A stretch of 64,000 bases of DNA from Halobiforma nitratireducens JCM 10879. GTDB taxonomy: Archaea; Halobacteriota; Halobacteria; Halobacteriales; Natrialbaceae. Each line of letters opens with the position of its first letter. Within the stretch, counting starts at the first letter, position 1. Under the pieces are notes generated by a model. The model saw only the letters and a list, made by a program, of their open reading frames with translations, had not been told where the DNA came from and did no database searches. The stretch covers positions 1 to 64,000 of the forward strand of contig NZ_AOMA01000063.1 in the NCBI RefSeq assembly GCF_000337895.1, given 5' to 3'. The position numbers were made by a program, and so were the translations under genes. This document shows, in pieces, positions 5,486 to 46,324 of the stretch.

Positions 5486-5544
5486 CCCGTTCTCGGTACA
5501 CGGTGTGGGACTCGAGTCGGCCGCCCCAGCCTGCCTCGAAAAAC

Positions 5545-7314: not shown

Positions 7315-7316
7315 GG

Positions 7317-8258
7317 TCAGTCGGCCGCCTGCGGCGCGTGGCCGTCGGCGGTCGTCGCGTCGTCGTCGATCGTTTCCCGGACCCATTCGACGGCCTCCTG
7401 TGCTGCTCTCCGGCCCTCGATCTGGCCGACGCCGGGTTCGTACTCGTTTTTCGCGATGGCGAAGAACTCGTCCCAGTCTAAGTCGTCCTCGACGACCTCG
7501 TATGTCCCGTCGTCGCGCTCCCGAATACGGGGCTCGTCTGGAATCTCGAGCCCGTACTTCCGGGCTTTCGGGATGTACTGATCGAGAAACGCATTGCGAA
7601 GTTCGTCGTTGGACTTCTGTTTGAGGCCCACGGCGGCCGCGAAGTCGTGGTGTGTGCTCTGGTCGTCAGTGGGTCCGAAAAACTGGATGATACGGGGCCA
7701 CCACGTCTCGAAGGCCGCCTGGGTTAGCTTCTGTTCCTTTCGCGAGCCGGTCATCAGCGTCCGGAGGATGTCTTCGCCGTGTTTCACGTGAAACCCCTCC
7801 TCGAAGCAAACCTTGTCCATGGCGTGGGCGTAGGGCTCCCAACTGGTCCGACGTAGCGTCGCCTGCCGACGCATCGCCGCCCCGTCAACGAAGAAAGCGA
7901 TCATCGGCGTCTCGACCCAGCTATCCATCGGGTAATGAAAACAGTTGAGGAACTTCCCGTCGCCGTTTGCCAGGTCGTCTAACATCTCCTCTCGAGTTTT
8001 GATCCCCAGCGACTCTGCGGCGCGATAGAGCAACTGCCCGTGGCCGATCTCGTCCTGGACCTTCGCGGAGAAGGCCAGTTTTCGGTCGATACTCGGCGCG
8101 TGCCGGATGAACGGCCGCTCGAGATACGCCCCCATGATCTCGCTGTTGGCGTGGAACTCGATCATCCGGGTCGCCGCTTCCCGGTACTCCTCGGGAAGGT
8201 CGTCCGCGGGGCTGAACTCCCGCGGACCCGCTCGTTCTTTCACCGTGTCCAGGTCCAT
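7317..8258 (-). CDS. paaA: 1,2-phenylacetyl-CoA epoxidase catalytic subunit PaaA
   Basis: A 313-residue ferritin-fold diiron oxygenase subunit. The carboxylate/histidine metal motif is visible in KVQDEIGHGQLLYRAAES, and a second one in CFEEGFHVKHGED. PaaA inserts oxygen into the ring of phenylacetyl-CoA, the committing step of aerobic phenylacetate catabolism. It is the first gene of paaABCDE and is divergent from the bat-type regulator. The 99-base intergenic space holds a TATA box that can serve either direction. Confidence 0.93.
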   Translation of the reverse strand: MDLDTVKERAGPREFSPADDLPEEYREAATRMIEFHANSEIMGAYLERPFIRHAPSIDRKLAFSAKVQDEIGHGQLLYRAAESLGIKTREEMLDDLANGDGKFLNCFHYPMDSWVETPMIAFFVDGAAMRRQATLRRTSWEPYAHAMDKVCFEEGFHVKHGEDILRTLMTGSRKEQKLTQAAFETWWPRIIQFFGPTDDQSTHHDFAAAVGLKQKSNDELRNAFLDQYIPKARKYGLEIPDEPRIRERDDGTYEVVEDDLDWDEFFAIAKNEYEPGVGQIEGRRAAQEAVEWVRETIDDDATTADGHAPQAAD

Positions 8259-8316
8259 GGTTTCACTGGAATGAACGACCGTGATGGTCTTAGGGGTTGA
8301 CCGCTATATGAGGTGG

Positions 8317-8327
8317 TTTTATATATT
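8317..8327. promoter_or_regulatory. TATA element between paaA and the bat-type regulator
   Basis: TTTTATATATT is AT-rich on both strands and is the only strong TATA-like sequence in the 99-base divergent intergenic region. On the minus strand it would place the paaA start site about 25 bases downstream with a short leader; on the plus strand it would place a start just before the regulator ATG at 8358. Confidence 0.5.
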
Positions 8328-8352
8328 GGTGTGGTCTAACATACGACACACC
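8328..8352. promoter_or_regulatory. Inverted repeat GGTGTG-N13-CACACC, possible operator
   Basis: Perfect 6-base arms (8328-8333 and 8347-8352) directly next to the TATA element, ending 5 bases before the regulator start codon. The GGTGTGG/CCACACC motif recurs upstream of paaK and of the EthD/TPP genes, so it may be the site of the adjacent regulator; that link is inference. Confidence 0.35.
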
Positions 8353-8357
8353 GCTCG

Positions 8358-8996
8358 ATGATCGACGAATGCCTCGTGGTCGAATTTCGGGTGCAAAACG
8401 ACGACTGTCCGCTCGCGGAGGCGACCGCGGCGGTCGATGTCGGGGTCGACGCTCAGCCGCCCCAGCGGCGGTCGGACGGTTACGACCTCCTGCAGTTCAG
8501 TGCTCCGAAGAACGATCGGCTCACCGAGGTACTCGATACGGACGACCGTATCTCCTATCTGCACGTCTCGAAAAGCGACGGTCGCCACCGGTATCGGTGT
8601 CTGTCGAAACACCCCTGTATCGTCCACGAACTGATCGACAACGGGCTCATCGTCGAGACGCTGCGCTACCGCGAGGGTGCGACGATGATCTTCGGTGCCG
8701 TCGTCGGTCGCGACGTGCTCAAGGGAGTGATGGAGGCCGCAGGCGAAACCGTCGGCGTCACACTCGAGCGTATCTGCCCGCTAGAGTCCGAGGCCGAGGA
8801 GGTGCCCAGCCAGCGGTGGAACCTCACGCCGGCCCAGGAGGAGTGTCTCCGCACGGCCCTGGAGCAGGGGTACTTCGAAATCCCGCGGGGCGTATCGACC
8901 GAGGCGGTCGCCGCCGAACTCGGGGTCAGCAAGTCCGCGTTTCTCGAACGACTGCGACGTGGCGAGCGGGCGCTGTTCCAGCAAATTTTCGACTGA
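8358..8996 (+). CDS. Bacterio-opsin-activator (bat)-type helix-turn-helix regulator
   Basis: A 212-residue cytoplasmic regulator. The N-terminal 150 residues are the bat-associated sensor-like region. Residues 155-212 are the HTH_10 domain: LTPAQEECLRTALEQGYFEIPRGVSTEAVAAELGVSKSAFLERLRRGE in form, ending in a short FQQIFD tail. There is no PAS or GAF domain. Haloarchaeal proteins of this build control neighbouring catabolic genes. Its divergent position to paaA strongly suggests it controls the phenylacetate genes, but the effector is not visible. Confidence 0.85.
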   Translation: MIDECLVVEFRVQNDDCPLAEATAAVDVGVDAQPPQRRSDGYDLLQFSAPKNDRLTEVLDTDDRISYLHVSKSDGRHRYRCLSKHPCIVHELIDNGLIVETLRYREGATMIFGAVVGRDVLKGVMEAAGETVGVTLERICPLESEAEEVPSQRWNLTPAQEECLRTALEQGYFEIPRGVSTEAVAAELGVSKSAFLERLRRGERALFQQIFD

Positions 8997-9048
8997 CCTC
9001 GCCGGAGCCGAGACGTTCTTCTCTCCCGACGTTGGCCCGAGACAGCAT

Positions 9049-9205
9049 GACAGATAGCGGGACCGTCAGGGAACGGATCGAGAGCGACGCCTACTGCGAG
9101 ACCCTCGAAATCGACTTCTAGACCTCGTCGGCCTCGAGTGCGGGTCTGTGACGACGCGTCTCGAGGTGATCGACGACCTGACGAACCACGGCGGAGCGTC
9201 TAGGT
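9049..9205 (+). pseudogene. paaI: Remnant of a PaaI-type hotdog thioesterase gene
   Basis: The ATG at 9049 opens MTDSGTVRERIESD-AYCETLEIDF and hits TAG at 9118-9120 region. Shifting the frame at about 9118 restores LDLVGLECGSVTTRLEVIDDLTN-HGGA, which is the N-terminal third of PaaI thioesterases (the YCETLGI and VTDDLTNxHG pattern). The match ends near 9205, where thiolase sequence begins. So there is one frameshift and a lost C-terminal two thirds, including most of the hotdog catalytic core. PaaI normally hydrolyses stalled aromatic-CoA esters in the same pathway. Confidence 0.65.
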
Positions 9206-9212
9206 CTACTCC

Positions 9213-9633
9213 GGGGTGTCGGGTCGATTCGACGACGAGGTCGTCCCGGTCGAAACCGACGATGGTCGCCTCGCGCGCCACGAGGGTCCTCGCCCCGATA
9301 CCGACCTCGAGAGCCCGAGCGAGTTACCGACCGTCTTTGCCGGCGGCGAGGACGCGACCGTCACGCCCGGCAACGCCTCGCCGCTGACCGACGGGGCCGC
9401 GGGGTTGCTCGTGACCAGCGCGATACGCCGCCGAGTACGGGCTCGAGCCGCTGGCTCGAGTGCGTTCACGCGCCGTCGCTGGCGTCGACCCGCTGGGCTG
9501 TTCCGGCACGCGAATCACGACGACGCTGCTGTACGAACTCGAGCGCTGGGACGGCCGGTACGGGCTCGCGACGATGTGTGTCGGCTTCGGCCAGGGGATC
9601 GCGGCAGTGTTCGAACGGACCGGCACAGTCTAG
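9213..9633 (+). pseudogene. Remnant of an acetyl-CoA acetyltransferase (thiolase) gene
   Basis: In one frame the thiolase middle region is readable (SGRFDDEVVPVET, then LPTVFAGG, then [19 protein letters not shown]). After about 9418 the match continues in another frame ([23 protein letters not shown]). That runs directly into the C-terminal motif [45 protein letters not shown] and TAG at 9631. The roughly 100 residues that normally lie between GVDP and HPLGCSG, including the NEAFA active-site region, are missing, as is the N-terminal half with the nucleophilic cysteine. This is a non-functional relic, presumably of the beta-ketoadipyl-CoA-type thiolase of the pathway. Confidence 0.8.
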
Positions 9634-9694
9634 TCTCCCGTCCCCTGTGGCCGGCTCGAGCCGCCGTCGAACCGACCGACTCCGCGTTCACAGG

Positions 9695-9709
9695 GGTTGT
9701 GTACACACC
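9695..9709. promoter_or_regulatory. Near-palindrome GGTTGTGTACACACC upstream of paaK
   Basis: Contains the perfect 10-base palindrome TGTGTACACA (9698-9707), about 40 bases before the paaK start, followed by an AT run (GATTTTTT). It shares the CACACC/GGTGTG half-site with the paaA-bat intergenic inverted repeat. Confidence 0.35.
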
Positions 9710-9749
9710 ACATGATTTTTTGCGGGGGACAAAGGAGTGTGGTGCGAGG

Positions 9750-11036
9750 ATGAGCTATACGCAGATCGAAACGGCACCACGGGAAGAGATACGAGAGCTA
9801 CAGGCTGAACGGCTCCGTGAGACGGTCCGGCGGGCCTACGAGAACGTCGAGTTCTACCGGAAGGCGTTCGACGAGGCCGGAATCGTTCCCGAAGATATCC
9901 AGACTCTCGAGGACGTCCATCAGCTCCCGTTTACGACGAAAGAGGACTTCCGCGACGAGTACCCGGACGGCCTCTTCGCCGTCGACGACGACGAAATCTA
10001 CCGTCTCCACGCGTCCTCGGGGACGACGGGGAAGCCGAAGATCGTCTCCTACACGGAAGCGGACCTGTCGGTCTGGAGCGAGGTCGTCGCCCGTTGTCTC
10101 GACGCGTCGGGCGTCGAGCCGGGCGATACGGTCCAGAACGGCTACGGTTATGGCCTCTTTACGGGTGGGCTCGGGCTCCACTACGGGATCGAGGAGCTTG
10201 GGGCGACGGTCGTTCCGATCGGCGGCGGGCAAACACGGCGACAGGTCGAACTCCTCGAGGACCTCGAGAGCGACGTGCTCGCTTGCACGCCGTCGTACTC
10301 GCTGCACCTGGCCGAGACGGCCGAAGAGATGGATGTCGACCTCTCGGAGCTTCCGGTGTCGACGGTGCTTTTCGGCGCGGAACCCTGCACCGACCCGATG
10401 CGTGAGGCGATCGAGGAGCGACTCGACGTCACGGGGATCGACATCTACGGTCTCTCGGAGATCATCGGCCCCGGGGTTTCCAACGAGTGCCACGAGGCAC
10501 AGGACGGGCTGCACGTCTGGGAAGATCACTTCTACCCCGAGGTGATCGACCCACGAACTGGCGAGGTCCTGCCGGAAGGTGAGGAGGGGGAACTCGTGTT
10601 GACTACGCTGACGAAGGAAGCCCTCCCGGCGATCCGGTACCGGACCGGCGATCTGACGACGCTGACTTACGAGGAGTGTGACTGTGGCCGGACGATGGTC
10701 CGCATGGACAACGTCACCGGCCGAACCGACGACCTGCTGATCGTCCGCGGAGTCAACCTCTACCCCAGCGAGATCGAGGCTGTCGTCCTCGAGTTCGACG
10801 ACATCGCGCCACACTACCGGATCGACCTTTACCGCGAGGACACCCTGGATCGCCTCGAGTTGACTCTCGAACTCGCGGCCGGAGTCGACGGCGATCGGCC
10901 GGAACTGCGGGACCGCGTGCTGACGCGACTCGAGACCGTCCTCTCGTTCACGCCGGACGAGTTGGAACTGACGGACCCGGGAACCATCGAGCGAACGGAA
11001 GTGGGGAAGGTAAAGCGGGTCTACGACCACCGGTAA
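9750..11036 (+). CDS. paaK: Phenylacetate-CoA ligase PaaK
   Basis: A 428-residue AMP-forming ligase with the PaaK-length N domain. The phosphate-binding motif SSGTTGKPK is at residues 89-97, an FGAEPC motif and a YGLSEIIGPG segment follow, and the C-terminal subdomain begins with RTDDLLIVRGVNLYPSEIE. It activates phenylacetate to phenylacetyl-CoA, the substrate of PaaABC. ATG 9750 is chosen because upstream in-frame codons belong to the thiolase relic. It is followed by the MaoC and enoyl-CoA hydratase genes on the same strand and together they complete a partial phenylacetate route. Confidence 0.9.
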   Translation: MSYTQIETAPREEIRELQAERLRETVRRAYENVEFYRKAFDEAGIVPEDIQTLEDVHQLPFTTKEDFRDEYPDGLFAVDDDEIYRLHASSGTTGKPKIVSYTEADLSVWSEVVARCLDASGVEPGDTVQNGYGYGLFTGGLGLHYGIEELGATVVPIGGGQTRRQVELLEDLESDVLACTPSYSLHLAETAEEMDVDLSELPVSTVLFGAEPCTDPMREAIEERLDVTGIDIYGLSEIIGPGVSNECHEAQDGLHVWEDHFYPEVIDPRTGEVLPEGEEGELVLTTLTKEALPAIRYRTGDLTTLTYEECDCGRTMVRMDNVTGRTDDLLIVRGVNLYPSEIEAVVLEFDDIAPHYRIDLYREDTLDRLELTLELAAGVDGDRPELRDRVLTRLETVLSFTPDELELTDPGTIERTEVGKVKRVYDHR

Positions 11037-11185
11037 CCGTCGTCGATCGGGAGCCGTCGAGAGCCGTGTCCCGAGTCGCCGCGAGCCCACGGCGAGCGAC
11101 GGCTCTCTCCACATCAATCCTCGGTCCCGTCGCCGATTCCCGTAAGCGAGGTAACTTATTTGTATCGCGATTGGAATGTTCTCGT

Positions 11186-33054: not shown

Positions 33055-35241
33055 TTAGATGTAGTCGATGTGCTCGGGCAGCTCGAGCTTCATGCCCTTG
33101 CGCTCACGGATCTCCATGATCTTCTCACGCTGGAGCGAGTCGGACATGACCTCGAAGCCGGCGTTCTCGGTGTTCCAGGAGGCACGACCCTCGGTCGCCG
33201 AGCGGATGTCGGAAGCGAATCCGATCATCTCGCCGACCGGGGCGATCCCTTCGACGACCATCAGATCGCCTTCCTGGTACATGTCGTCGACGCGGCCACG
33301 GCGGCCCTGAATCTCACCCGAAGCAGCGCCCATGTGGTCGTTGGGCACGTCGATGCGGACGTCCTGCATCGGCTCGAGCATCTTGATCTTGCCGTCGATC
33401 AGGGCGTTGTGGACCGCTTCACGGACTGCAGGGATGACCTGCGCGGGACCACGGTGGATGGTGTCCTCGTGGAGTCGTGCGTCGTGCAGTCGCATGAGCG
33501 TCCCTTCGACTGGCTCGTTGGCGAGCGGACCGTTGTCCAGTGCCTCCTCGAGCCCTTCGACGACCAGTTCCATCGTCTCGTTTAGGTGCTGGATACCCTT
33601 CGTGTCGTCGATGAGGACGTTGGTCCCGTGGATGTTCTCGACGTTCTGGGACGTCTCCTTTTCCATGCCGGCCTCCTGCAGGGCCTCACGCCGTTCCTGC
33701 TCGGGCATGTCCATCGACGCCTCGCCGAGCTTGATCGTCTCGACGAGTTCGTCGCTCATCGGTTCGATGGAGATGTAGAAGCGGTTGTGGCGGTTCGGCG
33801 AAATCCCCTCGACCTCGTCGCTTGGCTGCTGGGGCTGCTCGCGGAAGACGACGATCGGCTCACCGGTGTTGACCGGAATGCCCTGGTTCTTCTCGATACG
33901 CTGGGTGATGACTTCCAGGTGGAGTTCACCCTGTCCGGAGATCAGGTGTTCGCCGGTGTCCTCGTTGATGTCGATCTGGATCGTCGGGTCTTCCTTGGAG
34001 ACCTGGCGCAGCGTCTCGATCAGCTTCGGCAGGTCGTCCATGTTCTGTGCCTCGACGGACTTCGTAATGACCGGCTCGGAGATGTGCTCGATCGACTCGA
34101 ACGGCGTCATCTCGACGCTCGAGACGGTCGAACCGGCGATGGCGTCTTTCAGACCCGTCACCGCAGCGATGTTCCCCGCAGGGACCTCGTCGACTTCCTC
34201 GCGTTCGCCACCCATGAAGACACCGACGGACTGAATGCGGTTCTTGCCCGCCGTGCCGGAGACGTACAGCTCCTGGCCCTTCTCGAGGCTCCCCGAGAAG
34301 ACACGGCCGGAAGCAATCTCGCCGGCGTGAGGGTCCATCGAGATGTCGGTGACCATGAAGACGACCTCGCCGTCCTCGTTGACCAGGCGCATGCCCTCCG
34401 CGAGGTCGGTGTCGTCGTCGCCCCGCCAGATACGCGGGATACGTCGGGGCTGGGCGTCGACGGGGTTGGGGAAGTGCTCACAGACCATGTCGAGCACGAC
34501 GTCAGACAGCGGCGTCTTCTCGTGAAGCTCCTGGCGCTTGTCCGACCGCTCGAGTTCCATGATCTCGGCGAAGTCCATCCCGGTACGCTGCATCGAGGGC
34601 ATCGAGACGCCCCACTTGTACAGTGCGGACCCGAAACCGACGGTGCCGTCTTCGACGGAGACGGTCCAGTCCTCGACGTCGTCCATGTCTTCGGTCATGC
34701 CGCGAATGAGTTCGTTGACGTCGCGGATGACCGAGAGGAGACGTTCCTGCATCTCTTCGGGACCTTCCTGCAGTTCGGAGATCAGGCGGTCGACCTTGTT
34801 GATGAACAGGGTCGGCTTGACGCCTTCGCGCAGCGCCTGGCGCAGGACGGTCTCGGTCTGGGGCATCGCGCCCTCGACGGCGTCGACGACGACCAGCGCG
34901 CCGTCGACGGCACGCATCGCACGAGTCACGTCACCGCCGAAGTCGACGTGGCCCGGCGTGTCGATGAGGTTGATGAGGTGGTTGGTGCCCTCGTACTCGT
35001 GGGTCATCGAGACGTTCGCCGCGTCGATGGTGATCCCACGTTCCTGCTCGTCCTCTTCCGTGTCCATCGCGAGCTGCTCGCCGGCAGTCTCGTCGGAGAT
35101 CATGCCGGCACCGGCCAGCAGGTTGTCAGAAAGGGTCGTTTTCCCGTGGTCGACGTGAGCGGCGATGGCGATGTTCCGGATGTTCTCCGGTTCGTCCATC
35201 AGCCGTTCACACTCTTGGACGATCTTCTTGCGTCGGCCCAT
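33055..35241 (-). CDS. fusA: Translation elongation factor EF-2
   Basis: A 728-residue archaeal EF-2 GTPase. G1 is AHVDHGKTT, the switch regions include [13 protein letters not shown]3 is [10 protein letters not shown] and G4 is NKVD. H596 in DTIHRGPAQ is in the diphthamide loop. It translocates tRNA/mRNA on the ribosome. ATG 35241 gives the [15 protein letters not shown] start; the long upstream frame is a shadow. In many haloarchaea EF-2 follows rps7 closely; here about 9.6 kb intervenes. Confidence 0.97.
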
Positions 35242-35463: not shown

Positions 35464-36219
35464 ATGGATATACGCGTCCAGGGTCCCGGCCCCACGTCTC
35501 CGTTTCTCGGCGCTCGCGACCTTTTCGAGACCGAGCACGATCTCTCGTTGCCGGTGTACGTCCAGCTACAGGACGACCCGGACGAGCGTACCTGGGCCGG
35601 CCACTACGGCGACCGCCACGTTCTCAACATCTCCAGACAGGCCGCCTCGAGCGCGATGGCTCGAGAACTCGCTCTCCACGAGTTCGCCCACATGGCCAGG
35701 TACGAACAGGAACACCCGTCCCACACGCAGTCGACCGACGAAGTCCTCTTCCTGGCGCTGGCCGGCAAGAGCGTCGAACAGCGCAAACTCGCCCACTGCC
35801 ACCAGATCGCCAACCACATGAAAGACATCTACGCCGACGACATCACCCTCTCGGTCGGCCCCGGCGAGAAGTTGCTCGCCTATCTCGAGTCCAGTCTCGC
35901 AGCGGCAGTCGCGGACCGTCCGGACCCCTCCTCGCGGCCGGAGCACCAACGCCTCTCGCCGACCGCCGATCCCGAAATCACGGCCGTCAATGCGGCCTTC
36001 GCGCTCGCGCTCGCGGAGCGACACGACCTCGTCGACGACGACCACCGGCTGTACGATCTCGCTCGCGTGGCCGCGATGGACGCACCCACCGTCGACTTCG
36101 AGGGGTTCAAACGTCGATTCCGTGAGCTAACGCAGGACCCCGACTCGAGCAGTTACCGGCAGGTACTCGTCGACGCGACTCGGGACTACGTCGGTGGAAA
36201 AAGTCCTGCGGCGGACTGA
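35464..36219 (+). CDS. DUF5781-type protein with HExxH motif (putative metallopeptidase)
   Basis: A 251-residue haloarchaeal protein. H72-E-F-A-H76 in [19 protein letters not shown] is a classic HExxH zinc-peptidase motif; E82 or H87 could be a third ligand. Residues 100-190 are helical with more histidines ([12 protein letters not shown]). It is divergent from EF-2, as in several haloarchaea. The last 27 codons plus stop (36136-36219) are repeated at 41414-41496, the far end of the inserted cassette. Function unknown. Confidence 0.7.
36136..36219 (+). repeat. Direct repeat L (3' end of the DUF5781 gene)
   Basis: The 84-base 3' end of the DUF5781 gene matches 41414-41496 with 78 identical positions, five substitutions and one missing base. 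The identity stops exactly at the TGA on one side and mid-gene on the other. It behaves like a left attachment-type repeat of the cassette between the two copies. Confidence 0.75.
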
Positions 36220-36270
36220 CTCGAGAACCCAATAGCCCCAGGACGACTCTGTTTTCATCGATCCGTAGGG

Positions 36271-36289
36271 ACTGGCTTGGGGAGCCAGT
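36271..36289. repeat. Hairpin ACTGGCT-TGGGG-AGCCAGT
   Basis: Perfect 7-base arms with a 5-base loop, 51 bases inside the left repeat of the cassette, followed by further ACTGG/CCAGT copies to about 36330. It may terminate DUF5781 transcription or be an arm-type site of the element. Confidence 0.4.
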
Positions 36290-36406
36290 AGACTTTCCGT
36301 TACTGGGAGAGCATCAGAAGTCCGGCCAGTCCTAAAAAAGTGACAGTCCCTGTCTCTGTATTATCTGCTGTCGTGCGTCGACTATCGACATTCGCCACGA
36401 ATTATC

Positions 36407-36415
36407 TTTATTATA
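36407..36415 (+). promoter_or_regulatory. TATA box of the Tat-exported protein gene
   Basis: TTTATTATA is centred about 29 bases before ATG 36440, which would give a nearly leaderless transcript and supports that start over the in-frame GTG 36416 and ATG 36428. Confidence 0.5.
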
Positions 36416-36439
36416 GTGATGACTTTTATGGAAAATGTA

Positions 36440-37399
36440 ATGTCCGATGATAATCACGAACGGTTCAGTATGGACCGACGAACACTGCTTAAACGAACGA
36501 GCGCCGCATCTGCCGTTGCACTTCTCGGGGCGACTGGAGGTGCTGTCGCAACGGACGACTTGCAGAAGGGCGTAGTAAACAAAATCACACTCGATACGGC
36601 GGAGTACGACGATCTAAAAGAAGCGTCAGTGGTCTTTCTGAGGCGTAACAAGCGCGAGATCGTCCGAACTAAGATACACTCGGCACACGAAGTAAACCCC
36701 GAAAGAGCTGCCGGAGATGCCAATCCGACGAAAGTTAGTTACAGTCTCTCCTACGACGAATCGGGCGGAGTTGAAGTCACTGAATCGCAAGACGTAGCTC
36801 GGTTAACAAACGGTGATTTCACGCTCGACCGAACCGAGACCACGGCGACTCTGGCGAACCACTTCCGTGATAACTCGCTACACCAGAACAATGACGCCGA
36901 GATAAACATCCCTGACGAGCCGGAACTCGGCAACCTCGGTGACGCTGCGACGTGGGTTCAAACCGAATCGAGCGAGTGCGGTCCTCTTGCTCGAACGAAC
37001 CTCGCGGTCGAGTATACGCCGACTAGCGGTGATTTCGATATCGACGACTCTATTGGCATCTTTGAAACAGCCGATGGGGAGACCTGTGACGGCGAAGAGT
37101 TCGGTGACCGGTTCCCTTGTAGTGACCTTCCACCAGGAATCGACTGTGATATTCCAGACGCGTTCAACACGACGTGGCACGTCGATAGTTCCGACTACTC
37201 TCTTACGTCCGCGGAAGGCGATTACTACAACAATGACTTCCCCATCATTCCAGAATCGACCGCGGACCACAGTCAAGATACGTGGTTCGATGAGAACGAA
37301 CTGAACGTAGAAGGAACAGTTGATCACTCAGGCACCTTCGGGTTCCGTACGATCATTGACTTCCTCTTGGGGAGTGATGCTGGCGTGATCTTTTACTGA
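36440..37399 (+). CDS. Tat-exported protein of unknown function (cassette cargo)
   Basis: A 319-residue protein. The N-terminus has a clear Tat signal (MDRRTLLKRT, then SAASAVALLGATGGAVA, cleavage likely near residue 37). The mature part is acidic, has an N-terminal alpha/beta-like region (ASVVFLRRNKREIVRTKIHS), and four cysteines in the C-terminal half (ECG, TCD, PCS, DCD). The C-terminus ends in a hydrophobic stretch (TIIDFLLGSDAGVIFY). No domain recognised. It is the only non-transport, non-regulatory cargo gene of the cassette. Its 3' end overlaps the convergent small ORF by 7 bases. Confidence 0.7.
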   Translation: MSDDNHERFSMDRRTLLKRTSAASAVALLGATGGAVATDDLQKGVVNKITLDTAEYDDLKEASVVFLRRNKREIVRTKIHSAHEVNPERAAGDANPTKVSYSLSYDESGGVEVTESQDVARLTNGDFTLDRTETTATLANHFRDNSLHQNNDAEINIPDEPELGNLGDAATWVQTESSECGPLARTNLAVEYTPTSGDFDIDDSIGIFETADGETCDGEEFGDRFPCSDLPPGIDCDIPDAFNTTWHVDSSDYSLTSAEGDYYNNDFPIIPESTADHSQDTWFDENELNVEGTVDHSGTFGFRTIIDFLLGSDAGVIFY

Positions 37400-37599
37400 T
37401 CCAACTCCCTCCTTTCGAGAAGCCACCAGATCACGCCAGACGTGCTGTGTCCCGTTGCTGATGGATCAGACGTCGTTTCTGATTGAAAGTACAGGCGAAG
37501 ACCGCGGGTTTGCAGTAGTTGCTGAGGCGGCCAACTGACGATGTCGCGGTCCTGTTTCGATGTAATCGAGGCAACCAAGACAACGCAGGCAAGCAGCAT
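37393..37599 (-). CDS. Small hypothetical protein with N-terminal membrane segment
   Basis: A 68-residue frame, ATG 37599, 27 bases after the ABC ATPase stop and in the same frame. One hydrophobic segment (MLLACVVLVASI) is followed by a polar tail with tryptophans. It could be the last gene of the ABC operon (for example an accessory or immunity-type peptide) or a chance ORF; codon bias in the AT-richer cassette is not decisive. It overlaps the 3' end of the Tat protein gene. Confidence 0.35.
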   Translation of the reverse strand: MLLACVVLVASITSKQDRDIVSWPPQQLLQTRGLRLYFQSETTSDPSATGHSTSGVIWWLLERRELDQ

Positions 37600-37626
37600 C
37601 GTCGCTACTATCCGGAGCTCGGCTCG

Positions 37627-38553
37627 TTACGTGCTTTCCGTATCCGCGTACGCAGCGAACACATCTTCAAGCGATGCACGTTCGGTTTCGAAATCGATGA
37701 CTTCGATTCCGGCTTCTTCGAAAGCCACGAGTACGTCGGTTCGGACGCTCGCGGATTCGCAGTTTACCATCATTCGATTTTCATCGATCCACGCATCTTC
37801 GACGCCCTTGATTGCCATTACGGCGTCGGGTACTGATGTCGGCTCATCTTCTAACGTGATCGCAAGACGTGGTCCGCCATCGATACGGGCCTGGAGCTCC
37901 GAGACGGATGCTTCGGCGACCATTGTTCCTTCAGAGATGATGCCGGCTCGATCACAAATGGTCTCGACTTGGGCAAGCTGATGCGACGAAACGAAGACAG
38001 TAGCTCCGCGTTCGTTCTGCTCGTGGATCAGTTCTCGGATACGGCCTGCACCGCCCGGATCAAGTCCAGCGATGGGTTCGTCCAGAATTAGTAGGTCGGG
38101 CTCGCCGACGAGCGCCATCGCAAATCCGAGCCGACGGGTCATGCCCTGTGAGTACTCGCCTGCCTTTTGTTCTGCAGCATCTGATAATCCGACACGTTCA
38201 AGGAAGTTGTCAGGGTCAGTATCAACTTCACGAACAGAACACGCGAATTCGAGATGCTCACGACCCGTGAGATTCGGATATGGCGTAAAACCCTGTGGGA
38301 GTGCCCCCGTTCGAGACTTCACACCGAGTTCGTTTGACTGTACGTTTTGACCGAATACGCGAACTGTTCCATCAGTTGGACGGAGGAAGTTCAATAACAA
38401 GCCGATGGCTGTCGTTTTCCCGGCCCCGTTTGGTCCAAGAAAGCCGTACTTTTCTCCGGACCGAACCTCGAGCGAGAGGTTTGAGAGGGCAGTGATGCGA
38501 CCGAACGTTTGAGTCACCGAGTCGAATTCGATTGCGGGTGTATCGTCTGTCAT
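37627..38553 (-). CDS. ABC-2 type transporter ATP-binding protein
   Basis: A 308-residue ATPase. Walker A GPNGAGKTT at residues 40-48, the family signature YSQGM at 134-138, and Walker B LLILDEP with SSHQL for the switch histidine. The C-terminal 90 residues are the extension common to multidrug/antibiotic-type ABC-2 ATPases. It is the third gene of an operon (permease, permease, ATPase; 4 bases between the last permease stop and this start). It probably powers export of a small molecule, peptide or lipid. Confidence 0.88.
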   Translation of the reverse strand: MTDDTPAIEFDSVTQTFGRITALSNLSLEVRSGEKYGFLGPNGAGKTTAIGLLLNFLRPTDGTVRVFGQNVQSNELGVKSRTGALPQGFTPYPNLTGREHLEFACSVREVDTDPDNFLERVGLSDAAEQKAGEYSQGMTRRLGFAMALVGEPDLLILDEPIAGLDPGGAGRIRELIHEQNERGATVFVSSHQLAQVETICDRAGIISEGTMVAEASVSELQARIDGGPRLAITLEDEPTSVPDAVMAIKGVEDAWIDENRMMVNCESASVRTDVLVAFEEAGIEVIDFETERASLEDVFAAYADTEST

Positions 38554-38557
38554 TGAA

Positions 38558-39535
38558 TTACGTGAGTGATAGGCGTCGGAGTCTGTTGTACGTGATTATC
38601 AGCGGGAGGAGAATCCACAGCCCGAGGACGAAGACGGCGATCGGCCAAGAAAGATGTAGCGGTACCGCGGCCATGTCCGCAATCTGTGTCCCGACAACGG
38701 TGATGCCGAAGCTATCGATATCCTCGTGCGGTGCGAGGTGAACTTTCGGGATTATTTCTTCGTAGGGGGCCGAAGCGAGTACCAGGTACGCCTGTCGTGG
38801 GTCGACGCTGTACGCGTCGGGGAATAGCCCAAGAGCGTCAACGGCGGCTTCGTGCCAATTGAACGTAAATCCGATAAACACCGTGAACACTGCAGCTGCC
38901 ACTTGTCGTGGCGTCGCCAACAGAGACGACAGAGCAAACCCAATACTCAACCAGACGAATCCGTATCCGACGGTCGCTGCGGAGAACACGACGAAAGATA
39001 CCGTCTGTGCTGTCTCGAACTGAACGAGAACTGTTATCCAGCCAACGAGGAGACCGACGCCAATCACCGCTGTGAGAACGATTCCTCTGCCGAGAAGTTT
39101 GCCCAGTAGTATGGCCCCGCGCGAACACGGAAGCGCGAGTAGTGTTTTGAGTTGTCCAGTTGCCCGAGGGGTGACGATCGCTCCGTATCCGAGTATCAAG
39201 CCGAGTAGCGGAACGAGGAATACGAAAGAATTCACATGGAACGTATAACTTATGAAGCCGTTCACGGCGTAGACAGCATCGAACGTCTCCGGATATTCGA
39301 GGAAGGTATACCGACTGCCCCTTCCACCTTCGGCTTCCACGGGTTGGACACTGCTTGCGATTCGCCACGCGGAGAACCCGAAGAAAGCAGTGAACAGAAT
39401 CACTAACCGCGACCATCGAAAGTTGCGGAGTTCTGATTTGGCGATTGCTGCCGTTATTCGTGCTTGTGTGGCTGTGTCTGTCTGTGCTGTTTTACCAGAG
39501 CCGTCGGATAGTTCGACTGAGCGTATTGATCTCAC
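38558..39535 (-). CDS. ABC-2 type transporter permease 1
   Basis: A 325-residue protein with a basic N-terminal tail and six membrane segments in the ABC-2 layout (LVILFTAFFGFSAWRI, a long first external loop with EAEGGRGSRYTF, then VFLVPLLGLILGYGAIVTPRATG). It starts with GTG 39535 inside the stop of permease 2 (GTGA overlap). It pairs with permease 2 as a heterodimer. Confidence 0.8.
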   Translation of the reverse strand: MRSIRSVELSDGSGKTAQTDTATQARITAAIAKSELRNFRWSRLVILFTAFFGFSAWRIASSVQPVEAEGGRGSRYTFLEYPETFDAVYAVNGFISYTFHVNSFVFLVPLLGLILGYGAIVTPRATGQLKTLLALPCSRGAILLGKLLGRGIVLTAVIGVGLLVGWITVLVQFETAQTVSFVVFSAATVGYGFVWLSIGFALSSLLATPRQVAAAVFTVFIGFTFNWHEAAVDALGLFPDAYSVDPRQAYLVLASAPYEEIIPKVHLAPHEDIDSFGITVVGTQIADMAAVPLHLSWPIAVFVLGLWILLPLIITYNRLRRLSLT

Positions 39536-40443
39536 GAGAGAAACACCTCATTCCGAAACCCAAGGTATCCCACTGCGAGCGGACAGCAGACCCATACGAA
39601 GAGAACGAGGACGGCAACCGGAGCCGTTACGACCCACAACAGTGTCTCGGCTGATTGACTCCCACTCGAAAGAGTAATCTCGAGTGACGGATACATGGTA
39701 TCGAAGACTCCTGCAATCAGCACCGAATACCCGTGAAACGGATGCCCGACGATTGCTATCGGTGCGATACCGAGCGTCCATACTGCACCAAATACCAGTC
39801 CGAAATAGCCTGCGATTGCGCCGCTCAATGCGTGCAGCCGACTCGAAAGAAGTGCAGACAGAGTGACAGCGATGGAGACAAGCGCGGCGCTGAAAAGCGC
39901 ACTCCAAACAGCCCCTAGCAGGTGAGAAAACGATACTGCCGCCACCGAAGTCGTTATGACTAGTCCGAACGACCCGGCGAGAACGCCCACGAAACTGACT
40001 CCCATAAAGACGAGTACTCGTGCCAACGCCTTTCCGATGTAGATGTCAAACCGAGTTACCGGCAGTGATCCGAGTATCGAGAGTGTCCCTTCATCTCGTT
40101 CCGTGGCAATTGTCCCGTAACCGAAAAGAAACGCCAAAAGCGGGAGAAACACGACGTAAATATCGATACCGAGAAACCAGTAGGCGGCTGAAACCGTGTG
40201 TCCCTCCTCGAGGGTGACGAAGGTGGCAACTTCGGAAGACCCGGTCATACCGCTTGCTGTCCATAAGGAGGGTGCAACGAAAACAACGAATACGGCGGCG
40301 GCAATAGCGCGATTTGTCGTCGACCGACCGATCAAACGGCACTCGAGTAGAAACACTTGATATGGACGACGGGGATCGTAGGTCCTCGACCAAAACTGCC
40401 GGCAACTCCCTCTCAAACTGTTTTGCCTTTTCCGGTCTGTCAT
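39532..40443 (-). CDS. ABC-2 type transporter permease 2
   Basis: A 303-residue protein with six membrane segments and the same architecture as permease 1 (VFLPLLAFLFGYGTIATERDEGT and the cytoplasmic coupling element LPVTRFDIYIGK). Start chosen at ATG 40443; a TATAAATT box lies 18-25 bases upstream on the minus strand. First gene of the transporter operon, with the regulator gene ending 87 bases upstream. Confidence 0.75.
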   Translation of the reverse strand: MTDRKRQNSLRGSCRQFWSRTYDPRRPYQVFLLECRLIGRSTTNRAIAAAVFVVFVAPSLWTASGMTGSSEVATFVTLEEGHTVSAAYWFLGIDIYVVFLPLLAFLFGYGTIATERDEGTLSILGSLPVTRFDIYIGKALARVLVFMGVSFVGVLAGSFGLVITTSVAAVSFSHLLGAVWSALFSAALVSIAVTLSALLSSRLHALSGAIAGYFGLVFGAVWTLGIAPIAIVGHPFHGYSVLIAGVFDTMYPSLEITLSSGSQSAETLLWVVTAPVAVLVLFVWVCCPLAVGYLGFRNEVFLS

Positions 40444-40460
40444 TAGGTGTCGTTCGTTTG

Positions 40461-40468
40461 AATTTATA
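40461..40468 (-). promoter_or_regulatory. TATA box of the ABC transporter operon
   Basis: TATAAATT on the minus strand, centred about 22 bases before ATG 40443, in the gap between regulator and permease. The gap also has AT-rich stretches around 40475-40490 where a regulator could bind. Confidence 0.4.
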
Positions 40469-40529
40469 GAGATAAAGTTATTAGGGATACAATTTCGTCT
40501 CGAGACGAGACACTGAACGAGTGGTATCG

Positions 40530-41300
40530 TCAACGATCAGTCTGTGAAACGACAGATGCGTTTTTGCGATACTTTTCATAGAGCGATGTGCCCCACGCCA
40601 GGAATTGTTCGTGATTCCCAAAGACAATTCCGTGAACTGTGCTGTGTTCGTCATAAACTATCACAACTACGTGATCGTCCGTACGGACGAGACCGATCGG
40701 CTCCGTGAACTCGTCGTATGCGTATATCACATCGCCAAACGTAGTCGAAAGATCGACCAAGTTGCTGGATCGAATGCCTTCTAGTCCGGCTGAGCCGATA
40801 ATTAACTCGACTTGCTGGTCTCGTTCCAAGACTGTTCGATGTGCATCGAGGAATTGCTGTGTAACGGCCGGTACGAACGTGTGTACCTCGGTTGCGGATC
40901 GAATAATCTCGATAACTTTCTCGAGTGGTCCGTTCGGATAGCTTGGCTCGCGAAGATTTACGTCACATTCGATGAGAATATCTGTAGAGACATCTTCGAA
41001 GTAGCCTGGCGCATATCTAGCGATAGTAGTTAACTCTTGAAGCTTTTCTGCACGCTCGATCTCTCCTACAAAATCAGTGACCGCCGTTTCTACGAGAGGC
41101 GCAAGGTACATTCGATCATTTGACTGTCGAATCCACCCTTCTTTTTCGAGTTGGTTCAGATTCCGCAGAACTGTCCGTCGTGTCGCACTGACTGTCTCCT
41201 CGAGTTCTGAAACAGTCTTTGGAGACTGTGTGAGCTCGCGCAGAATCTCGTATCGCGCTGATGAAGCAAATAGTTCTGCAAGTACGACACCATCGGCCAT
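40530..41300 (-). CDS. Winged-helix regulator with FilR1-like ligand domain
   Basis: A 256-residue cytoplasmic protein. Residues 10-70 are a winged-helix domain (ASSARYEILRELTQSPKTVSELEE and TRRTVLRNLNQLEKEGWI in form). The C-terminal 150 residues match the haloarchaeal FilR1-type ligand domain (FVPAVTQQFLDAHRTVLERDQQVELIIG, then a GNHEQFLAWG end). Start ATG 41300; a TATATATG element is about 30 bases upstream. It directly precedes the ABC operon in the same orientation and is the likely controller of the cassette. Confidence 0.75.
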   Translation of the reverse strand: MADGVVLAELFASSARYEILRELTQSPKTVSELEETVSATRRTVLRNLNQLEKEGWIRQSNDRMYLAPLVETAVTDFVGEIERAEKLQELTTIARYAPGYFEDVSTDILIECDVNLREPSYPNGPLEKVIEIIRSATEVHTFVPAVTQQFLDAHRTVLERDQQVELIIGSAGLEGIRSSNLVDLSTTFGDVIYAYDEFTEPIGLVRTDDHVVVIVYDEHSTVHGIVFGNHEQFLAWGTSLYEKYRKNASVVSQTDR

Positions 41301-41326
41301 GTCTACAAACAATATTGAAACGTGTG

Positions 41327-41334
41327 TATATATG
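41327..41334 (-). promoter_or_regulatory. TATA box of the FilR1-like regulator
   Basis: CATATATA on the minus strand, centred about 30 bases before ATG 41300, suggesting leaderless transcription. Confidence 0.45.
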
Positions 41335-41413
41335 TTAACCCTAATTGAATACCCATCGTACGTTTCCCGTCACTGTACAAATTATCAGCACTGATCTCCG
41401 CGTCTATAGGCTG

Positions 41414-41496
41414 GACCTCGACTCGGGCAGTTACCAGCAGGTACTCGTCGACGCGACGCGGGACTACGTGGGTGGAAAAATCCTGCGGCGGACTGA
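41414..41496 (+). repeat. Direct repeat R (copy of the DUF5781 3' end)
   Basis: 83 bases matching 36136-36219 (78 identical positions, one base deleted in the GGAAAAA run). It ends with the TGA-equivalent, here read through as GCGGACTGAAAAC. It is not part of a complete gene. It closes the cassette on the right, 18 bases before the stop of the FIST transducer. Confidence 0.75.
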
Positions 41497-41513: not shown

Positions 41514-44456
41514 TCACTCGGGAAGCAACATCACGACCGACGTCGTGTTGTGGTATCCGCTCAACTGCCCTCGCTCCATGCAAAGTTCGCCGTAGGTTTC
41601 GAACCCAGTAAACGGGACCTCGAGTTCGTCGGCCATCGCATCGACCGCCTCGCCGAACTCGTCTTCGAGGATGATCGACCGACAGGCACAGTCGTAGACG
41701 AAGCCACCGGCGATCTCACTCGAGCCGGCGTTCTCGACGGCGTCACGTGCGGTGTCGCGTGCCGACTCGATCTGATCGGACTTCGGACTGTGCATTACGC
41801 GCAGTTCGGTTCCCTCCGGGACGCCGACCGGGAAGTCGAGATACCCCTCGGTCGTCAGGGACAGTCCCGGCCAGCGGATCTTGTACCCGTCGTCGCTTGC
41901 ACCCCGTCCTTCTTCGATACCGAACTCGAACTCGGTCAACAGGCCGAACAGCTCGAGGCTCCCGTCCTCGAGTGCGTCGAAGTCGACGGTTCGACCACGC
42001 TCCTCGAGGTAGGGCTCGACGACCTCTCGCCAGGCTTCGAAGGCGGGCTTGCCGTCGAGTTCGAGGATCCGTCCGCCCTCCGATTTCGTCACCGTCATCG
42101 GCTCGGAGATCGGCGAGTGGCCGTGATCGACGCTGATCGTGATCGGTTCCTTCGACGCCAGCAGGCCAACGACGACTGCGTCGGATTCGACCGTCTCGTT
42201 GTGGAACACGTGGGTCGCTTCCATCGACAGATCGTCGGCCGCGGACCCGCCGACGAAGCTCGTCTCGTGACCGAGGTTGCGCTGGGTCGCCACCGCGACC
42301 TGGTCGCCGACGCCCGCCAGTCCATCGTGGAGCACGATCGCCGACAGGTGTGGATACCCGGCAACCGAGCCGGGTAGCGATTCGACGGCCTCGTTGACCG
42401 CGGCCGCGACGCCGTCCGAGAGGTCCGTCCCGAGCCCGCTGAAGAACTGGACCGTATCACTCGCAGCGAGTGCGACCGCAACGCTTCCCTCGGTACTGGT
42501 CTCTTCCGTGAACTCGCCCGACGACGAGGCACCGATCAACTCGGCCTCGTCGCCGACGACCGACCGGATTCCGTCGAGCACCGCTTCGTAATCGTACTCC
42601 GCCGCACAGAACACCTGTCCGAAGTCGACGCGGCCGTCCGTCTCGAGACCGTCGGCCGCCTGGGTCGCTGCCGCTTTCCCGACCTCGAACCCGTCGTCGC
42701 CGACGGCGACGCCGCTCCCAAACTGTGTCGGCAACCCGTCGGTTGCGGGTTCCTCGCTTGCCTCCGACTCGAGATCACTGAACTCGAACGTCGTGTCGTC
42801 GGCGTCCTCTTCCGTCCGATCCGCAGGACCCGTCACAGACGCAGCGACCTCATCCGTGCTGCCTTCCGTGATCGTGTTCGGCTCTGATCCCCCGCTGGTC
42901 GCGTCCTCGCGTCCGCTCGTTTCCGTGCTCGCTGTTACACGCGAGTCGTTCGCGGCGGCCACCGCAGGTGCGCGTTCCTGTCCCGGTACCTCCTGGCGTG
43001 CTTTGTACATATCGAGCGTATCGCGGAGCCACGCCGCGTTCTCCGCAAGCTCGGCCGCGCTGTCGGAGACGCTCGTGAGTGCGGTCGTCTGCTCCTCGGC
43101 CGAGGCCGCCACGTTCTCCGCGAGCGCGGACGTTCGGTCGCTGATCGTCGCAGTCTCGTCGACCAACGCGACCGCCTGCTGGGTCGATTCGGCCTGCTGG
43201 TCGGCCGCCATCGAAATCTCCTGGACGCCGTCGTTGGTCTCCTCGGCGTACTCGGCGATCTCTTCGAGCGCCGACAGTGCGTTCTCGACGGAGTCGGTGT
43301 GAGCCGCGATCTTCTCCTCGGTCTCGGTGACCGTCTCGGTTGCCGTCTCGGTTCGTTCCTGAATCCGCTCGAGTCGCGTTTCGATCTCCTCGGCGGCCGA
43401 CTGGACCTCGTTGGCGAGCTCTTTGACCTCCGAGGCGACGACGGCGAACCCCTCGCCGTCGTCCCCGTCCTCGGTCGTCCCTCGCGAGGCCTCGATGTTC
43501 GCGTTCAGTGCGAGCATGTTCGTCTGCCGGGCGATGTCGGAGATCATCTCGACCAGTTCGTCGATCGCCTCCACGTCCTCGTGGAGCGTTTCGATCGCTT
43601 CGACTGCCTCCGTCGATCCGGATTCGATCTCCTCGATGCCGTCGACCGCGGTTCGTGCCGCTTCCCGCCCTTCCCGTCCGGTTTCGGCGGTCTCAGCGGC
43701 AATCGTCGCGACTTTTTCCGAACGACTCGCGATCTCCTCGATGTTCGCGGAGAGGTGGTCCATCTCGGCGTTGACTGACTCGAGACGCTCGGACTGGACC
43801 GACGCGCCGTCGGCGATCTCCTGGATATCCTCGCTGATCTCCGTGCTCGCCGTCGTCACCTCGTCGGTGCCGGCCATGAGTTCGTCGCTCGAGGTGACCA
43901 CGAGCCGCACGAAGTCCTTGAGATGACGGATCGTCCCCTCGAGTTCGTCCATCATCGCGTTGAACTCCTCGGCGACGGACAGCGGCGCGTTCTCGTCGGG
44001 CTCGATTCGGTGTGCGAGCCGTCCGGCCGCACACAGCCCCATCGCTTCCTCGAGTTCGGCTGCCTGGGCTTCGATCCGCTCGTTGCGGGTTTCGAGGGAC
44101 TCGAGTTCGTCCTCGAGTGTCCCGGCCCGGTCACGGAGGCGACGGTTCTCGCGCAGCGTCGCCTCGACGGCATCACCGATGTCCTCTACGTCGGTCATCG
44201 ACTCGAAGTCGAAATCGACCGCGTCGGCGTCGCCCATCGTCGTCTCGGTTTGCACTCGTTCGATCGTCCCGTCGATTCGTCCGCCGGCCCAGTGGCCCAC
44301 GACGATCCCGGCGACAACGATCAACGCCCCACCACCGAGCAGTCCCGGTAGCCCGGCGACTACCCCAGCACCGACGACGGCAGCCGCGACGACGGCCGAG
44401 AGGACGCCGAACCGGAGCGCGGATGCGGTCGCCGATGATCCGAATACTACACTCAT
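41514..44456 (-). CDS. Chemotaxis transducer with C-terminal FIST sensory domain
   Basis: A 980-residue protein with a rare order of parts. Two membrane helices at the start (15-55), a coiled-coil/HAMP-like region (95-185), and the methyl-accepting signalling hairpin (200-480) with its tip IARQTNMLALNANIEAS and FAVVASEVKELANE (about 309-349). A Ser/Glu-rich linker (490-575) leads to a FIST_N domain (580-780, GASSSGEFT) and FIST_C domain (800-960, GFETYGEL). FIST domains are predicted small-ligand sensors, here placed downstream of the signalling unit. Start ATG 44456 preferred over ATG 44483. Confidence 0.85.
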   Translation of the reverse strand: MSVVFGSSATASALRFGVLSAVVAAAVVGAGVVAGLPGLLGGGALIVVAGIVVGHWAGGRIDGTIERVQTETTMGDADAVDFDFESMTDVEDIGDAVEATLRENRRLRDRAGTLEDELESLETRNERIEAQAAELEEAMGLCAAGRLAHRIEPDENAPLSVAEEFNAMMDELEGTIRHLKDFVRLVVTSSDELMAGTDEVTTASTEISEDIQEIADGASVQSERLESVNAEMDHLSANIEEIASRSEKVATIAAETAETGREGREAARTAVDGIEEIESGSTEAVEAIETLHEDVEAIDELVEMISDIARQTNMLALNANIEASRGTTEDGDDGEGFAVVASEVKELANEVQSAAEEIETRLERIQERTETATETVTETEEKIAAHTDSVENALSALEEIAEYAEETNDGVQEISMAADQQAESTQQAVALVDETATISDRTSALAENVAASAEEQTTALTSVSDSAAELAENAAWLRDTLDMYKARQEVPGQERAPAVAAANDSRVTASTETSGREDATSGGSEPNTITEGSTDEVAASVTGPADRTEEDADDTTFEFSDLESEASEEPATDGLPTQFGSGVAVGDDGFEVGKAAATQAADGLETDGRVDFGQVFCAAEYDYEAVLDGIRSVVGDEAELIGASSSGEFTEETSTEGSVAVALAASDTVQFFSGLGTDLSDGVAAAVNEAVESLPGSVAGYPHLSAIVLHDGLAGVGDQVAVATQRNLGHETSFVGGSAADDLSMEATHVFHNETVESDAVVVGLLASKEPITISVDHGHSPISEPMTVTKSEGGRILELDGKPAFEAWREVVEPYLEERGRTVDFDALEDGSLELFGLLTEFEFGIEEGRGASDDGYKIRWPGLSLTTEGYLDFPVGVPEGTELRVMHSPKSDQIESARDTARDAVENAGSSEIAGGFVYDCACRSIILEDEFGEAVDAMADELEVPFTGFETYGELCMERGQLSGYHNTTSVVMLLPE

Positions 44457-44714
44457 ACTCCGACTATGATACCGATCGTACAAGAATGGCGGTGGTACCC
44501 CTCCTGACGCTTACGTCTCCACACCGTACTCCCGGCTGTAACGGGAGAACTGTTGGAGACGCGTTTCGCCTCGAGTCGTTTGCCGGGGGCCACCGAATCG
44601 ACCCGGTTCGTGAGGGCAAAGCAACCGAACGCGAAACCGGGGAAACGACAGTACGCTGGGACTGATCGCAGACTGCCCGCACAGCTGTCGGGTGGTCAGA
44701 TGCTACTGGAGCGA

Positions 44715-44894: not shown

Positions 44895-45503
44895 TTAGCG
44901 GGCAGCCGCCGCGACGCGCTCTTTCTCTTCTTTCTGACTGACTGCGTAGGTGCCGACGTCGTTGTTGGCCGCGCCGACGAGCTGGTTGGCGATGGCCTCT
45001 TCGACGGACGTCGTGGTCTTGAACGAGTCGTTGTGGACGCCCTCGGCGAGGAACTTCAGGGCCTGATCGACGCGACGCTGGGGAGCGACGTCGACGGCCT
45101 TCGGGACCGAGATCCCTCCGTATTTCAGGCGGACCGTCTCCTCCCGCGGGGCCGCGTTCTCGACTGCGGTCACGAGCACTTGCACCGGGTTCTCCTCGGT
45201 GCGCTCGTGGATGAGATCGAACGCGTCACGGACGTAGTTGAGGGTTTTCTGCTTTTTGCCCGTGTTGTCCTCGGTCTGCATCAGGCGGTTGATAAACCGC
45301 TCGACGATGGAGATCTGGGACTTCTTGAACTGCTTGCTTGCGTGACGGCCAGCCGTGTGAGCGACCGGCGTCACCGTGATGTAGCGTTCGGTCGACGGAT
45401 CGGCGTACTCGATTTCGCCGATCTCCCACTCGCCGAACAGCTTCGCCGAAACGTCAGCGCCGCCCGCGGGGGCGTCCGGATCGGGTTGGTCTTCTGCAGA
45501 CAT
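44895..45503 (-). CDS. rps7: 30S ribosomal protein S7
   Basis: A 202-residue S7 of archaeal length with an acidic N-terminal extension. The core has KSQISIVERFINRLMQ and the conserved ending SYAVSQKEE-type tail (GTYAVSQKEEKERVAAAAR). It binds 16S rRNA at the head of the small subunit. It follows rps12 by 2 bases. EF-2 is not directly next to it but about 9.6 kb away behind the inserted genes. Confidence 0.95.
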   Translation of the reverse strand: MSAEDQPDPDAPAGGADVSAKLFGEWEIGEIEYADPSTERYITVTPVAHTAGRHASKQFKKSQISIVERFINRLMQTEDNTGKKQKTLNYVRDAFDLIHERTEENPVQVLVTAVENAAPREETVRLKYGGISVPKAVDVAPQRRVDQALKFLAEGVHNDSFKTTTSVEEAIANQLVGAANNDVGTYAVSQKEEKERVAAAAR

Positions 45504-45505
45504 GG

Positions 45506-45934
45506 TTATCGAACCGGCTTCTCAGCGTTTCCGCGAACGAGTTCCTTCAGCGCGACGCCGTTTACCTTGTCGACCTTGTAGTTGACGCCGGAGAGGTCAC
45601 CCATCGCACGACCCTTCGCCCCACCGATACCGGCGATGGTGACTTCGTCGTGTTCGTCGATGAACGAGATGGCACCGTCACCGGGACAGAACGCGGTGAC
45701 CTGCTTTCCGTTCTTGATCAGCTGAACTCGGACACACTTTCGGATCGCCGAGTTGGGCTGTTTGGCTTCGATGCCGACCTTTTCGAGTACGATACCTCGA
45801 CCCTGCGGAGCGCCCTCGAGGGGATCGGACTTCTCGCGAAGCCCACGGGCGCGGCGCGCGTAGTCAGAGTCGGACCACCGCTGCTCCTGGCGGTCCTTCT
45901 TGAGCTTGCGCGCGGCGTACTTGCCGTTTGCCAT
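45506..45934 (-). CDS. rps12: 30S ribosomal protein S12
   Basis: A 142-residue S12 ([16 protein letters not shown]). It includes the conserved [25 protein letters not shown] block and the [15 protein letters not shown] segments near the decoding centre. It starts at ATG 45934; the in-frame upstream extension is a shadow. First gene of an rps12-rps7 unit. Confidence 0.95.
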
Positions 45935-46324
45935 GCGCGTCGATATCCGACGGAGGCACTTAAGCAACCCGTTTCGAATCGGCGTTACGGCCCGAGAGCG
46001 CCCGATTGGGGTCGACGAGGCAATCTGAGACCGTTTCGGCACCGAACGATCGTTCTCGGGGCGTCCACACGAGCCGATGTCGGTGCGGGACGATCATGCT
46101 CCTCGGACGAACCCGGGTGCGATCATCTCTAGAAGTGTCCGACCGAAATAATCGCCCGAGACCTATATTTCTACCATGCCTACATAATAGAGACAATTTT
46201 GAAGAAGAAATAATATTTCTCGCCCATATCTACGGGCAACAAACCGATATTACCCTCGTAGATTGCCGCTTTCGACATCAATCACTAGAAGTTATCAGTC
46301 AGCTCTACTAAGAGCCAACTCGAG
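45935..46324. other. Intergenic region between rps12 and the V4R gene
   Basis: No gene seen. The part nearest rps12 (45935-46130) is GC-rich and should contain its promoter (ACTTAAG near 45957). The part from 46140 to 46320 is AT-rich (AATAATATTTC and similar) and probably holds the promoter of the V4R gene. Confidence 0.5.

Follow-up and report, generated by a model that had tools for sequence, protein, structure and literature searches.

A five-gene cassette between an intact and a decayed copy of DUF5781 in Halobiforma nitratireducens and its relatives

In Halorubrum ezzemoulense, homeocassettes, many of which carry transporters, have been argued to swap by homologous replacement through conserved flanks (PMC11078007). 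The displacement of Rhs C-terminal tips has been attributed to homologous recombination with a circle, for which a single crossover was proposed (PMC2935791), and homology-facilitated illegitimate recombination, a process demonstrated in bacteria (PMC3240628), has been proposed for the displacement of type VI effector-immunity modules in Vibrio (PMC5361080). Here, we describe a five-gene cassette that lies between an intact DUF5781 gene and a second, decayed copy of that gene in Halobiforma nitratireducens JCM 10879 (GCF_000337895.1, contig NZ_AOMA01000063.1, positions 1-64,000 of the forward strand; this whole stretch of 64,000 nucleotides is referred to as the window). We consider it probable that the cassette, which is integrase-less, arrived through homologous recombination at a hotspot ahead of rpsG and that the resident DUF5781 gene was thereby displaced and later decayed. 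The locus would then be a natural case in which recombination-prone haloarchaea gain a whole cassette without an integrase, with the displaced copy of a core gene marking the event.

Repeat pair and empty sites in related genomes

The left copy of the repeat comprises positions 669-756 of the DUF5781 gene and ends at its TGA stop codon (36132-36219). It aligns with 41410-41496 at 92.0% identity over 88 columns, with one missing base and an E value of 2e-31. The next best match to this stretch in the window covers 31 base pairs (bp) with an E value of 0.05, which excludes a chance repeat. DUF5781 was named in no paper found by literature search. Its protein contains a HEFAH stretch resembling a zinc metallopeptidase.

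The region from the elongation factor 2 (EF-2) gene to rpsG was compared across 107 genomes of the family, including the window. In three genomes of the same genus (G001, G002 and G003), the site is empty, with a single DUF5781 gene and no repeat, a state that insertion of an integrase element would also predict in relatives, and a gene with MCP and FIST domains begins 22-114 bp past DUF5781. In G003, the sequence after the DUF5781 stop codon is the sequence that follows the right copy in the window, and the right border is therefore the native end of DUF5781, with the added DNA running from 36220 to about 41382. The same cassette occupies the same place in G004, of the same genus, and in G080, of a different one, at 71-88% protein identity, and each has a right copy of its own. 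A divergent form, also with its own right copies, is present in G015 and G066, where the ATPase and regulator are 44-50% identical and the twin-arginine (Tat) signal protein about 25-27% identical. Read from sequence comparison, the relatives confirm that the cassette is inserted. The initial annotation had described a direct repeat at 36136-36219 and 41414-41496, coordinates that proved correct to within four bases, and had pointed to empty sites with one copy, or to the same cassette elsewhere with its own repeat copy, as signs of insertion; both were found, and the proposed insertion stands.

The second DUF5781 copy goes with the cassette: all five genomes bearing this type have one, and the 102 others have none (Fisher p 9e-9, uncorrected for relatedness). 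When the last 72 amino acids of DUF5781 were searched against 392 genomes of the order, the matches listed included two each in the window, G004, G080, G066 and G318, the best match in G318 being weak (1.6e-9); the G015 relic, at 44 bp, is below the length that such a search can pick up.

Several of these loci have features of their own. The regulator gene, intact in the window, is frameshifted at different places in G004 (locus L035, 13078-13850) and G080 (locus L064, reverse strand). G015 seemingly holds two cassettes in tandem (locus L051, about 4700-11100), of which the one adjoining DUF5781 is intact and of the G066 type, and the one adjoining the 44-bp DUF5781 relic is decayed, of the window type, and represented by regulator and permease pieces; a DUF5781 remnant was sought between the two stacked cassettes and not found. 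In G066, the stretch between regulator and relic (locus L157, about 10250-10740) looks by eye like the final part of a gene for cytochrome oxidase subunit III.

The right-hand copy of DUF5781 and the arrival of the cassette

In the window, the right copy begins with a remnant of the DUF5781 start (positions -6 to 15, at 41383-41404), followed by five bases and then by positions 669-756. This 22-bp start remnant is 82% identical to the gene, a score reached by 1 of 2000 shuffles, and the intergenic stretch before the repeat can be aligned between the window and G080, with the remnant at the matching place in both. The right copy of G080 joins positions -5 to 66 to about 633 to 752; its start piece represents 62-72 bp of the gene start at 86-87% identity, and the two pieces overlap in CTTCGAG, as a microhomology deletion would leave. 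In G066, the right copy spans 433 bp at 94% identity (positions 290-722) with an open frame to the stop codon. The left edges of the right copies thus fall at -6 (window), -5 (G080), 290 (G066), 632 (G004) and 711 (G015). All five genomes carry a downstream remnant of the anchor gene that varies in length, the pattern of a displaced gene, and the short repeat of fixed extent confined to the 3' end that marks an integrase element was not what we found. The right copy is, on these alignments, a decayed relic of the whole or a large part of a DUF5781 gene. As a short attachment site would not yield start remnants, variable left edges or a 433-bp copy, we read it as the displaced resident gene.

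These observations bear on three claims of the initial annotation. Homology limited to the 3' end of the gene was correct for the 3' repeat and incorrect for the limitation, because the start remnant adjoins it. Integration at the 3' end with restoration of the gene did not hold up, given the varying left edge, the start remnant, the 433-bp copy in G066 and the failure to find an integrase. A relic of a second DUF5781 gene had been offered as an alternative to insertion; it describes the nature of the repeat and fails as an alternative, since the relic is tied to the cassette, making insertion and relic one event.

The integrase reading can be stated as integration at the DUF5781 3' end by a small element whose integrase has been lost or was supplied in trans, with attL and attR as the repeats. 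It would account for homology that stops at the stop codon or within three bases of it in four of the five cases, for a right copy that abuts the native flank and for the clean empty sites. It is nevertheless quite improbable, as the right copy reaches the gene start in the window and G080, and the two copies in G066 differ across their last 34 bp. Pfam, NCBIfam, PADLOC and PHROGs scans of the cassette proteins returned no integrase, as the initial annotation had noted, and none was seen by eye in the open reading frame lists of the G015 and G066 cassettes. None of the seven PF00589 (tyrosine integrase) matches of the assembly is on the contig of the window; the assembly is 85% complete in 205 contigs, which leaves some room for an integrase acting in trans. 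There was also no transposase match among the cassette proteins and no inverted repeat pairing the two ends of the cassette.

The flanks of the right copies bear on which copy is resident. The right copy meets the native flank in the window (compared with G003) and in G015 (compared with its sister G068), where it bears the TAG stop codon and the following sequence of the one DUF5781 gene in G068; the left copy of G015 has TGA instead. This finding argues against an old tandem duplication of DUF5781 with the cassette lying between the copies by coincidence, an explanation that would suit a relic holding both gene ends and the junction before the relic shared by the window and G080. With no family locus carrying a second copy without the cassette, we judge such a coincidence very improbable.

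In G080, EF-2, S7 and S12 are 96-99% identical to those of the nearest species of its own genus and the intact DUF5781 has its nearest relatives in other genera. By this placement the intact DUF5781 of G080 is foreign, and because its left copy is foreign and the right copies join native flank, DUF5781 and cassette seem to be exchanged in blocks, as units. Between G004 and G080, third-position mismatch is 32% in DUF5781 (positions 1-660) and 11% in the Tat gene, with 10% mismatch in intergenic bases; the cassette therefore moved after the DUF5781 genes separated, and is, by these divergences, transferred between genera. The regulator gene is about 80% identical between G004 and G080 and about 86-92% between G080 and the window, and the cassettes are accordingly mosaics, the G080 regulator being nearer to that of the window than to that of G004. 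Towards the end of DUF5781, the identity between G004 and G080 jumps; this was considered as proof of a crossover in the repeat and rejected, as its support interval is wide (673-1028) and both genomes bear the cassette; for these reasons it serves here solely as evidence of transfer.

From these comparisons we infer which copy came from outside and the recombination steps involved. The incoming DNA would have borne the cassette with a DUF5781 gene of its own, whole or in large part, on the left. The left junction would have formed by homologous recombination within DUF5781 or upstream of it, and either end joining or one crossover with a circle may have sealed the right end. Now redundant and lying to the right of the cassette, the resident DUF5781 would then have decayed by internal deletion, the leftover being 41383-41496. 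Later cassette swaps could have proceeded by ordinary homologous replacement via the conserved flanks.

Four observations weigh against displacement of a resident gene. The left copy in the window is not clearly foreign, the 5' remnant in the right copy there is only 22 bp long, and no intermediate with two full DUF5781 genes was found in the 125 family genomes searched. In addition, in four of the five genomes the left copy has the right copy as its nearest relative and vice versa, a nearness that displacement can accommodate only through gene conversion, repeated insertion or close donors. The same nearness, in the 3' ends of copies flanking cassettes that are old, would be expected if the cassette were a live, homology-driven one, in which the two DUF5781 copies recombine to release a circle able to enter other DUF5781 genes, each host thereby regenerating its own pair. 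The patchy presence of the cassette and its transfer between genera are also in keeping with this. Gene conversion accounts for the similarity equally, though, and at 44-126 bp the repeats offer recombination little length. No copy of the cassette was found in plasmid or viral collections, where neither DUF5781 nor the Tat protein had a relative and matches on plasmids to the permeases and regulator fell below 40% identity. We therefore regard a live cassette as unlikely. It is likewise doubtful that such loci represent a wider class of integrase-free haloarchaeal cassettes, their sole mobility device a carried piece of a housekeeping gene, that host recombination would excise and re-insert across genera while leaving the host gene whole. 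Displacement by incoming DNA, followed by decay of the resident copy, remains the reading we prefer.

Genes of the cassette and the DUF5781-rpsG interval

The features of the locus are collected in Table 1. The cassette is the 5-kilobase (kb) stretch of lowest G+C content in the window, with flanks of 61.8% and 63.3%. The initial annotation had called the interior richer in A+T and unrelated to the surrounding informational genes, and the composition and domain annotation agree with both statements.

Table 1. Features of the cassette locus in the window.
Feature	Position	Strand	Evidence
EF-2 gene, conserved left neighbour	33055..35241	-	tblastn, 88-98% protein identity beside DUF5781 in almost all family loci
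Intact DUF5781 gene (left copy)	35464..36219	+	Pfam PF19093, 440.7 bits; found in 125/125 family genomes searched
Inserted cassette, five genes	36220..41382		52.6% G+C; absent from G001, G002, G003; present in G004, G080
Tat-signal protein, 319 amino acids	36440..37399	+	Twin-arginine start DRRTLLKR, read by eye
ATP-binding cassette (ABC) transporter ATPase, DrrA-like	37627..38553	-	PF00005, 99.8 bits; PF13732
ABC-2 permease 1	38558..39535	-	PF12679, 94.0 bits
ABC-2 permease 2	39532..40443	-	PF12679, 66.5 bits
Helix-turn-helix (HTH) regulator with FilR1 middle domain	40530..41300	-	PF08350, 75.9 bits; PF25213, 46.5 bits; intact in the window
Putatively displaced DUF5781 gene, start remnant (positions -6 to 15)	41383..41404	+	82%, 22 bp; colinear with the 62-72 bp remnant of G080
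Putatively displaced DUF5781 gene, end remnant (positions 669-756; right repeat)	41410..41496	+	92%, 88 columns, E 2e-31
Native flank resuming past the insertion	41497..41513		Matches G003 sequence after its single DUF5781, into the end of the MCP-FIST gene
rpsG (uS7) and rpsL (uS12), conserved right neighbours	44895..45943	-	tblastn, 84-100% protein identity in most family loci

The twin-arginine motif of the Tat protein was also read by eye in aligned relatives. The protein has no family match in Pfam, NCBIfam, PADLOC or PHROGs, and a PDB profile search gave no structural relative; an AlphaFold model built from three sequences (predicted local distance difference test score 31) was not used. 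The NCBIfam models nearest to the ATPase are DrrA and a lantibiotic-protection ATPase, both with scores below the model cut-offs, and PADLOC and PHROGs returned generic ATPase and HTH matches for the cassette proteins. A probable role of the cassette is export of, or protection against, its own Tat-secreted protein, controlled by its own regulator. Halocin gene clusters, such as that of halocin C8, have a gene for a Tat-type secreted protein near ABC transporter and regulator genes. Judged by its genes, the cassette resembles them in having a putative Tat-secreted protein with an ABC transporter and a regulator nearby and differs from them in that its secreted protein matches no known family in Pfam or NCBIfam. 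Halocin-like antagonism is our likeliest guess for its role, and a tentative one. The cassette can be described as an uncharacterised module made up of a secreted protein, an exporter and a regulator, and is a candidate for a new halocin-like system.

Among the 103 loci that reach rpsG, the distance from DUF5781 to rpsG ranges from 90 bp to 9.8 kb (median 3.5 kb) and exceeds 1 kb in 78. All relatives of the Tat protein in the family with at least 38% identity lie inside this interval, in two orientations, and the interval constitutes a hotspot where gene exchange between genera is readable. In G099, G092, G047, G110 and G046 (loci L065-L069), the Tat gene adjoins rpsG and points the opposite way, in most cases with neither ABC genes nor a DUF5781 relic, and the G092 copy has an in-frame TGA. 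To the right of the cassette, a methyl-accepting chemotaxis (MCP) signalling domain is fused to the N- and C-terminal FIST sensor domains (41514-44483), a gene found at the same place in some relatives and not in others. In G167, which belongs to another family, the genes for Tat protein, permease, permease, ATPase and regulator follow one another in a single orientation on a stretch without EF-2, DUF5781 or S7, which suggests that the five genes form a unit independent of the DUF5781 site.

Comparison with described systems

Clean empty sites, direct repeats and a gene kept intact are shared between this locus and the elements that tyrosine integrases insert at the 3' ends of genes. In contrast to those elements, no integrase was found here, the repeats are long and variable, and the relic is that of a whole gene.

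As in the Rhs tips (PMC2935791), part of a resident gene would have been shunted downstream by incoming DNA, leaving remnants of variable length behind an intact copy. The anchor here is a conserved housekeeping gene whose product is unchanged, in contrast to the variable toxin gene of the Rhs system. The Vibrio modules and the process proposed for them (PMC5361080, PMC3240628) are similar in having one homologous and one non-homologous end, with older genes retained downstream, although that proposal concerns bacteria and the present archaeal case is read from sequence alone.

Like the homeocassettes (PMC11078007), the window and G066 types place a Tat protein, ATPase, permeases and regulator between DUF5781 and rpsG, and they represent alternative islands between the same core genes with at least half of their genes homologous. 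In our sample of one genome per species, and unlike the homeocassettes, the different forms occur across genera, and at its right border the island bears a decayed copy of the core gene next to it.
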